From positions 1-57,361 of the forward strand of contig CANQCG010000005.1 of assembly GCA_947589645.1 (NCBI GenBank): a stretch of DNA of 57,361 nt, in the 5' to 3' direction. This DNA is from an uncultured Clostridia bacterium. GTDB lineage: Bacteria; Bacillota; Clostridia; TANB77; CAG-508. Below, piece after piece: positions 107-47,350 of this stretch (the stretch's first letter is position 1; each line of letters starts with the position of its first letter). The position numbers and the translations under genes were made by a program. The notes beneath the pieces were generated by a model, which was given only the letters and a program-made list of their open reading frames with translations, did not search any database and was not told the DNA's origin.

Positions 107-135
107 TTGACAAAACCGTGAAAAAACAGTATAAT
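107..135 (+). promoter_or_regulatory. Promoter of the tRNA-Tyr gene
   Basis: Consensus sigma-A promoter: TTGACA at 107-112, a 17-bp spacer, and TATAAT at 130-135. Transcription would start about 35 bp before the tRNA. Nothing coding is seen in positions 1-106. Confidence 0.85.
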
Positions 136-212
136 AAATTTCGTCGACTAGAGGAAAAGGCAAAATTTTATATTATGGGTAGGTGGCCGAGTGGCTAAAG
201 GCGGCAGACTGT

Positions 213-433
213 AAGCTTTGATTTTATCAAAGAATCAAAAATTGCAGCCTATACAAGAAATTGTATAGTGAAAACTAGGCTAATTCGGGGAAGTCTTAAC
301 AGTGTAGCTGATGATAATCCCGAGCTAGGGAATAATCCCAAGTGTAGAGACTTTATACCTGGTATCTATATAGATAAAGAGAAAGTCCAGACTACAAACA
401 TTTTAAAATGGTAGTGAAAACTATAGTAGTAAG
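213..433 (+). ncRNA. Group I self-splicing intron in the tRNA-Tyr anticodon
   Basis: The 221-nt intervening sequence shows the group I core in order. The P element is AATTCGGGGAA (near 280), the Q element ATAATCCCGAGC (near 315), the R element GTAGAGACTTTA (near 343) and the S element AAGAGAAAGTCC (near 378). P7 pairs GACTTT with AAAGTC. The 5' splice site follows a U. The last four bases of the 5' exon, CTGU, pair with an internal guide GCAG at about 244-247, ending in the required U-G wobble. The intron ends in G (433). The core resembles the IC3 type known from cyanobacterial tRNA-Leu introns. There is no room for a homing endonuclease. Splicing is inferred, not shown. Confidence 0.9.
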
Positions 434-451
434 AAATCTGTTCTCATTTGA

Positions 452-483
452 GTACGATGGTTCGAATCCATCCCTGCCCACCA
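452..483 (+). repeat. Attachment-site-like direct repeat, left copy (tRNA-Tyr 3' end)
   Basis: These 32 bp, comprising the end of the variable arm, the T arm, the acceptor strand and CCA, are repeated identically at 5038-5069. Integrases of the tyrosine recombinase type often use exactly this part of a tRNA gene. Element integration restores the tRNA and displaces the old 3' end. This copy completes the functional tRNA. Confidence 0.75.
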
Positions 484-5037: not shown

Positions 5038-5069
5038 GTACGATGGTTCGAATCCATCCCTGCCCACCA
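5038..5069 (+). repeat. Attachment-site-like direct repeat, right copy
   Basis: Exact 32-bp copy of the tRNA-Tyr 3' end (452-483), without the rest of a tRNA. It is best read as the displaced original tRNA end marking the right boundary of an integrated element of about 4.6 kb. Confidence 0.75.
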
Positions 5070-47245: not shown

Positions 47246-47350
47246 AAATTTTATTAAGAGTGGACGAGAGAATCGGCTTTATGACTCCACAGCAACCTGT
47301 GAAAGCAAGGTGCTAAAACCGACAAAGCAAAGCTTTGAATAATAAATAAA
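47246..47350 (+). promoter_or_regulatory. SAM-I (S-box) riboswitch aptamer controlling metK
   Basis: The conserved S-box order is present: AAGAGTGGA, then GCTTTATGACTCCAC, then AGCAACCTGTGAAAGCAAGG and TGCTAAAACC. P1 can pair TTTATTA with TAATAAA and P2 pairs GTGGA with TCCAC. The aptamer binds S-adenosylmethionine. Since metK makes SAM, high SAM would end transcription at the hairpin 47361-47388. This region and the hairpins explain most of the 543-bp gap before metK. Confidence 0.92.

Follow-up and report, generated by a model that had tools for sequence, protein, structure and literature searches.

Introduction

According to a 2014 review, group I introns in bacterial tRNA genes are limited to the cyanobacteria and some alpha- and beta-proteobacteria (PMC4033280). 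The tRNAscan-SE 2.0 paper adds tRNA-fMet and tRNA-Ile2 cases and states that the tool was not designed for these introns (PMC8450103), and a 2017 paper claims short examples in the Arg, Gly, and Lys tRNAs of cyanobacteria (PMC5733544). In phages, all introns known to Hausner et al. in their 2014 review were in protein genes, despite the many tRNA genes that phages carry; the same authors saw little to indicate horizontal movement from one bacterial species to another (PMC3984707). Our literature search on group I introns in tRNA-Tyr, in Clostridia and other Firmicutes, in the rumen, and in phage tRNA genes, most subscription papers being outside its reach, yielded no description of the family reported here.

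The intron that we analyzed splits a tRNA-Tyr gene at the start of a 57,361-nt stretch of DNA, hereafter called the window, from an uncultured gut bacterium of the Clostridia. Like the bacterial tRNA introns already known (cyanobacterial Leu(UAA) and fMet, Azoarcus Ile, Agrobacterium Arg), it is a short ribozyme-type insert in the anticodon loop with a U-G pair at the 5′ splice site, a terminal G, and a GNRA loop on P2. Unlike them, it and its relatives reside in Clostridia, Bacilli, and phages, and in tRNAs for Tyr, Thr, Asn, and Lys.

Results

The split tRNA-Tyr gene and its boundaries

When introns were allowed, ARAGORN reported a tRNA-Tyr(gta) gene at 177-483 whose nucleotide 36 is followed by a 221-nt intron; with introns disallowed, it reported nothing in the window. 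The joined exons form a canonical class II tRNA-Tyr(GUA) with an encoded CCA (ARAGORN score 118.9), and this 86-mer agrees at every position with the tRNA-Tyr of three congeners that have no intron there (L031, L033, and L035), which bears out the perfect tRNA claimed in a preliminary description of the locus. The exact 30-nt exon junction is also present in 11 relatives. The boundaries U212|A213 and G433|A434 are therefore fixed by empty sites and not only by the splice rule; the join search over the relatives did impose a rule of U before and G at the end of the intron (the U/G rule), while the sites in the window rest on the empty alleles instead. The same alleles confirm the U at the 5′ splice site and the terminal G, which had been read earlier from the letters alone, as had the guide pairing with its U-G wobble described below.

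Group I identity

Positions 226-407 match the Rfam group I model RF00028; the alignment covers the full 253 positions of the model and scores 41.3 bits (E = 3.3e-9). The covariance search that had been proposed as a check thus gave a low E-value, but the score is under the curated gathering score of 50, and default annotation consequently misses the intron. Because a whole-genome search with Rfam's own model missed the Tyr and Asn copies, we built our own family models. The one used here, R2, has a nested structure checked by hand and scores the window intron at 134.6 bits; another, R1, based on an RNAalifold structure, was set aside on account of a doubtful hairpin over the R element.

Covariation was scored for P3, P4, P5, P6, the pseudoknotted P7, and P8 in an alignment of 32 related but diverse cores. 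Standard pairs occupy 97.9% of the cells versus 78.5% in shuffles, 15 of the 24 pairs have changed on both sides, and the alignment reaches a covariation score of 0.555, versus 0.174 for shuffled alignments and 0.02-0.10 for slid structures. P3-P6 and P8 are supported by covariation; the P7 pairs are present in 32/32 cores and invariant, hence outside the reach of covariation. The pre-tRNA folds 4.9 SD below dinucleotide shuffles, and its minimum-energy structure contains P1 and P2. In 51 of the 53 Tyr introns, P2 forms a hairpin of 8-9 bp; its loop is nearly always of the GNRA type, and its stem occurs in 22 distinct versions across all 53. In P1, the guide pairing CUGU(209-212)/GCAG(244-247) is lengthened by A213-U243 and A214-U242. 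The guide tracks the exon, with GCAG-CUGU in Tyr and Asn, GGAG-CUCU in Lys(CUU), and GAGU-ACUU in Leu(UAA); such a pairing, varying with the exon, was found in 114/114 parsed introns. With its GUGUAGAGACU core and its GNRA loops L2 and L9, the window intron presumably resembles the IC3 intron of Azoarcus. The match to RF00028, the covariation, and the empty sites uphold the claim that a group I intron interrupts the anticodon of tRNA-Tyr between U35 and A36. The features are listed in Table 1.

Table 1. Positions in the window of the tRNA-Tyr gene, its intron, and associated features
Feature	Position	Strand	Details and basis
Putative promoter	107-135	+	TTGACA-17-TATAAT, 12/12 consensus positions; consensus match only
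5′ exon, tRNA-Tyr(GUA)	177-212	+	ends ...C32 U33 G34 U35
P1	209-247	+	209-214 with 242-247; U212-G244 wobble at 5′ splice site
Group I intron	213-433	+	221 nt, ORF-less, terminal G433; RF00028, R2, and empty sites
P2	249-268	+	8-bp hairpin, GAAA loop; minimum-energy fold
P3	274-363	+	274-279 with 358-363; 4/6 pairs changed on both sides
P4 and P5	285-323	+	P4 285-289 with 319-323; P5 294-295 with 313-314; covariation alignment
P6	326-341	+	326-341, 328-339, 329-338, 330-337; compensatory changes in 4/4 pairs
R (342-355) and S (383-388), P7	342-388	+	349-352 with 384-387, G-binding helix; invariant
P8 hairpin	364-375	+	364-366 with 373-375; covariation alignment
P9 region	410-429	+	GUGAAAAC loop; sequence
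3′ exon, tRNA-Tyr	434-483	+	A36 through encoded CCA; ARAGORN parse, empty sites
3′ end of tRNA-Tyr (32 nt)	452-483	+	exact repeat at 5038-5069, attachment-site-like
Displaced copy of tRNA-Tyr 3′ end	5038-5069	+	exact 32-nt repeat

Probable dependence of the host on splicing

The host assembly is 97.8% complete and comprises 49 contigs. A genome search with the joined tRNA found no second tRNA-Tyr, only the 32-nt copy of the 3′ end, so the other intact tRNA-Tyr(GUA) gene that would have spoken against the intron did not appear, and splicing is therefore probably essential. Besides the Tyr(GUA) intron, the genome contains two others of this family, one in Thr(UGU) and one in Asn(GUU). Searching it with the joined Thr and Asn exons gave no second gene for either isoacceptor, the best other matches being tRNA-Met and tRNA-Thr(CGU). 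Since no second Tyr or Asn gene was found, the cell's decoding of Tyr and Asn codons probably depends on splicing. Nine congeners, too, have no full tRNA-Tyr match other than the gene with the intron. The host encodes Spo0A, which is consistent with its earlier designation as a spore former but is no proof of sporulation.

A family in five tRNA species

The core pattern occurs at no fewer than 118 places in genome contigs, nearly all of them from Clostridia or Bacilli MAGs. Among the matches listed, joining the exons by the U/G rule produced a good tRNA for 114 of 132 unique cores; these 114 parsed introns comprise 53 in Tyr(GUA) at U35|A36, 34 in Thr(UGU) at U36|A37, 19 in Asn(GUU) at U35|U36 (two misparses corrected), four in Lys(CUU) at U35|U36, and four in Leu(UAA) at U34|A35. 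The first ARAGORN parses had assigned Asn(GUU) introns to Ile, Asp, Phe, or Thr(CGU), readings that the U/G-rule joining ruled out, and one match (L007, in G050) was left out as it had no surrounding tRNA. With the family model, introns were found in 79/238 genomes of the window's order, representing 20 of 41 genera, and in only five of 398 genomes drawn across the phylum, the window's own included. A search of plasmids found no similar intron. What had been framed as a single case is instead one member of a broad family that spans five tRNA species of Clostridia and Bacilli and extends to phage tRNA arrays. The main common target is UGU followed by (A/U)A, located at tRNA position 35 or 36; local sequence rather than tRNA position therefore appears to set the site.

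Among cultured Clostridia, Ruminococcus albus 8 has an intron (L106) at U34|A35 of tRNA-Leu(UAA), which we take to be the cyanobacterial site; it would make a practical bench model. A related tRNA-Lys(CUU) intron (L121) lies in a MAG labelled Alphaproteobacteria, where either transfer or misbinning is possible. Three Bacilli MAGs (L104, L143, and L146) have adjacent tRNA-Thr(UGU) and tRNA-Tyr(GUA) genes, each with a closely related intron, as though one site had been seeded from the other; some of these introns contain HNH or PDDEXK ORFs.

Turnover within the genus

Twenty-seven genomes of the same genus have a scored tRNA-Tyr, with the intron present in 10 and absent from 17. On a YvcK tree, presence and absence require 10 changes for the 10 intron-bearing species (shuffled mean 8.3), a parsimony count that covers gains and losses alike without distinguishing direction; at least six of the 10 are forced by starred YvcK branches alone. 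The closest pair with and without the intron (G034 and G027) shows a precise 228-nt difference between flanks that are 83-85% identical. Between the genome G023 and the window, the tRNA-Tyr exons are only 83% identical and the introns 92%. In G044, which belongs to another family, the intron shares 94-95% identity with the introns of several congeners; MAG contamination is possible. Host and intron distances correlate weakly (Mantel r = 0.46, p = 0.03, n = 9), which leaves room for some vertical descent. The intron tree, computed on 180 columns with support values from a short search, groups the introns by target tRNA (13 changes versus 66.6 in shuffles); within it, the Lys introns L010 and L084 fall in the Thr group, and the Bacilli-type Tyr introns fall with the Thr introns. 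Within the genus, close relatives thus differ at a single site in whether they have the intron, a pattern by which mobile introns are recognized, and the empty sites are precise.

Endonucleases and phage copies

The 221-nt window intron encodes no homing endonuclease and is ORF-less, as had been noted before, and no endonuclease gene was seen in the other Tyr introns of its genus, which are of similar length at about 220-232 nt. Relatives do carry such genes. In Bacilli-type tRNA-Tyr introns, the P1 loop contains an ORF with a match to PF11645 (PDDEXK_5, a PD-(D/E)XK endonuclease; E = 5.6e-17), presumably the family of I-Ssp6803I. In this, the introns recall the cyanobacterial tRNA-fMet intron that encodes I-Ssp6803I, from which they differ by the placement of the ORF in the P1 loop of a Bacilli tRNA-Tyr intron, and the window copy by having no ORF. 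Some tRNA-Thr introns contain, between the P5 strands, an ORF classified in PHROGs as an HNH endonuclease (E = 2.8e-19). One such HNH protein from a Bacilli chromosome (L092) is 64% identical to that of the viral contig L220, where the HNH ORF sits in an intron of the tRNA-Thr type that is part of a tRNA array. In L143 and L144, the HNH ORFs of the Thr introns seem to have frameshifts at runs of A, as though they had begun to decay once fixed.

The core also occurs in 39 IMG/VR contigs, whose viral status is that assigned by IMG/VR, a few having been checked for tRNA arrays and phage-like proteins. The parsed introns among them include tRNA-Asn, -Tyr, -Leu, and -Lys(UUU) and a tRNA with a CUA anticodon, and several copies lie in arrays of 6-23 tRNAs. 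Viral matches that could not be parsed resembled introns of protein genes at first sight, but many have a tRNA 3′ half downstream instead; the unparsed matches may be of either kind. The endonuclease classes found in or beside these phage copies are those of the known phage group I introns with HNH or GIY-YIG genes; unlike those introns, the copies here are inserted in phage tRNA genes. Five phage-like contigs (L208, L210, L213, L220, and L243) have arrays of 7-23 tRNA genes in which HNH, GIY-YIG, and PD-(D/E)XK-like endonucleases and intron-split tRNAs are interspersed. The split tRNA with the CUA anticodon, in L223, is possibly an amber suppressor of a recoding phage.

Discussion

We consider it very probable that the insert at 213-433 is an ORF-less group I intron of the self-splicing type at U35|A36 of the only tRNA-Tyr gene found, and an endonuclease-less form of a mobile family. 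Splicing would follow the known group I reaction. The pre-tRNA would be transcribed from a promoter that is strong by its consensus match, and the guide GCAG would pair with CUGU at the 5′ splice site to form P1. A guanosine bound by P7 would then attack after U35, and the freed 5′ exon would attack after the terminal G433, giving tRNA-Tyr(GUA). The scattered distribution would be accounted for by gain at the same site of the same tRNA through homing or recombination, occasional jumps to tRNAs with a UGU(A/U)A-type target, and precise loss. We presume that gain proceeds by homing and that phages serve as vectors; the phage tRNA arrays, which carry relatives of the intron, are a plausible reservoir. 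A more far-reaching proposal, which we hold to be rather unlikely, is that phage arrays and gut Clostridia and Bacilli share one intron pool, in which phage endonucleases cut intronless tRNA genes of the host or of rival phages at the anticodon, the ORF-less intron protects an essential tRNA, and selection for or against this protection drives the rapid turnover.

Old vertical inheritance, which the preliminary description had offered as one account of an intron lacking an endonuclease, finds no support as a complete explanation. Taken strictly, as an ancient intron with many losses and no present mobility (as has been argued for some cyanobacterial tRNA-Leu introns), it has in our judgment a small chance of being correct. 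The introns of the genus are indeed ORF-less, the Tyr introns largely form groups of their own on the intron tree, and host and intron distances do correlate weakly; however, 10 changes on 27 scored congeners, the 94-95% identity of introns across families, the nesting of Lys and Bacilli-type Tyr introns with Thr introns, and the endonuclease genes and phage copies among relatives all argue against it.

Rivals that deny splicing, or group I splicing, fare worse. That a non-splicing insert marks a pseudogene, the working tRNA-Tyr being encoded by a gene missing from the assembly, is very improbable. The assembly is in 49 contigs, and tRNA genes do lie in repeats that break assemblies; yet the exons retain a perfect tRNA, many introns preserve the catalytic elements, with compensatory substitutions, and nine congeners likewise have the intron in their only full tRNA-Tyr match. 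Protein-spliced tRNA introns, too, typically sit in the anticodon loop, but a BHB-type intron removed by proteins, like an insert of another kind such as a group II intron or an IStron, can practically be dismissed in view of the group I core, the terminal G, the U-G pair at the splice site, and the covariation; for a group II intron or an IStron, moreover, 221 nt is too short for a maturase or transposase.

As far as could be checked, what is new lies in the hosts, the tRNAs, the link to phage tRNA genes, and the patchy distribution within one genus. The findings widen the known range of group I introns in bacterial tRNA genes by a new major group of hosts, new tRNAs, and the tRNA genes of phages, contrary to the picture in the reviews (PMC4033280, PMC3984707). 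Species with the intron have close relatives without it, and together they form a natural system for testing how a ribozyme that sits in an essential gene is gained, lost, and exchanged between phage and host. There is also a gap in annotation: these genes escape tRNA and Rfam searches run at default settings, so a MAG can seem to be without tRNA-Tyr, -Thr, or -Asn, tRNAs that are counted in standards of genome quality.

The same tRNA had also been proposed as an integration site, and the exact duplication of its 32-nt 3′ end is compatible with this. The two repeats bound about 4.6 kb, in which the ORFs checked (an HTH regulator, DUF4190, a DUF6809-like protein, and a zinc-ribbon protein) include no integrase; the segment is perhaps a remnant or a satellite element. 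In the genome G031, two contigs, C42 and C56 (L274 and L275), end within the tRNA-Tyr intron and diverge past the tRNA, which suggests that an element is integrated at the 3′ end of the tRNA in some strains and not in others. Farther along the window, at 47248-47348, lies a SAM riboswitch (RF00162, 72.9 bits).
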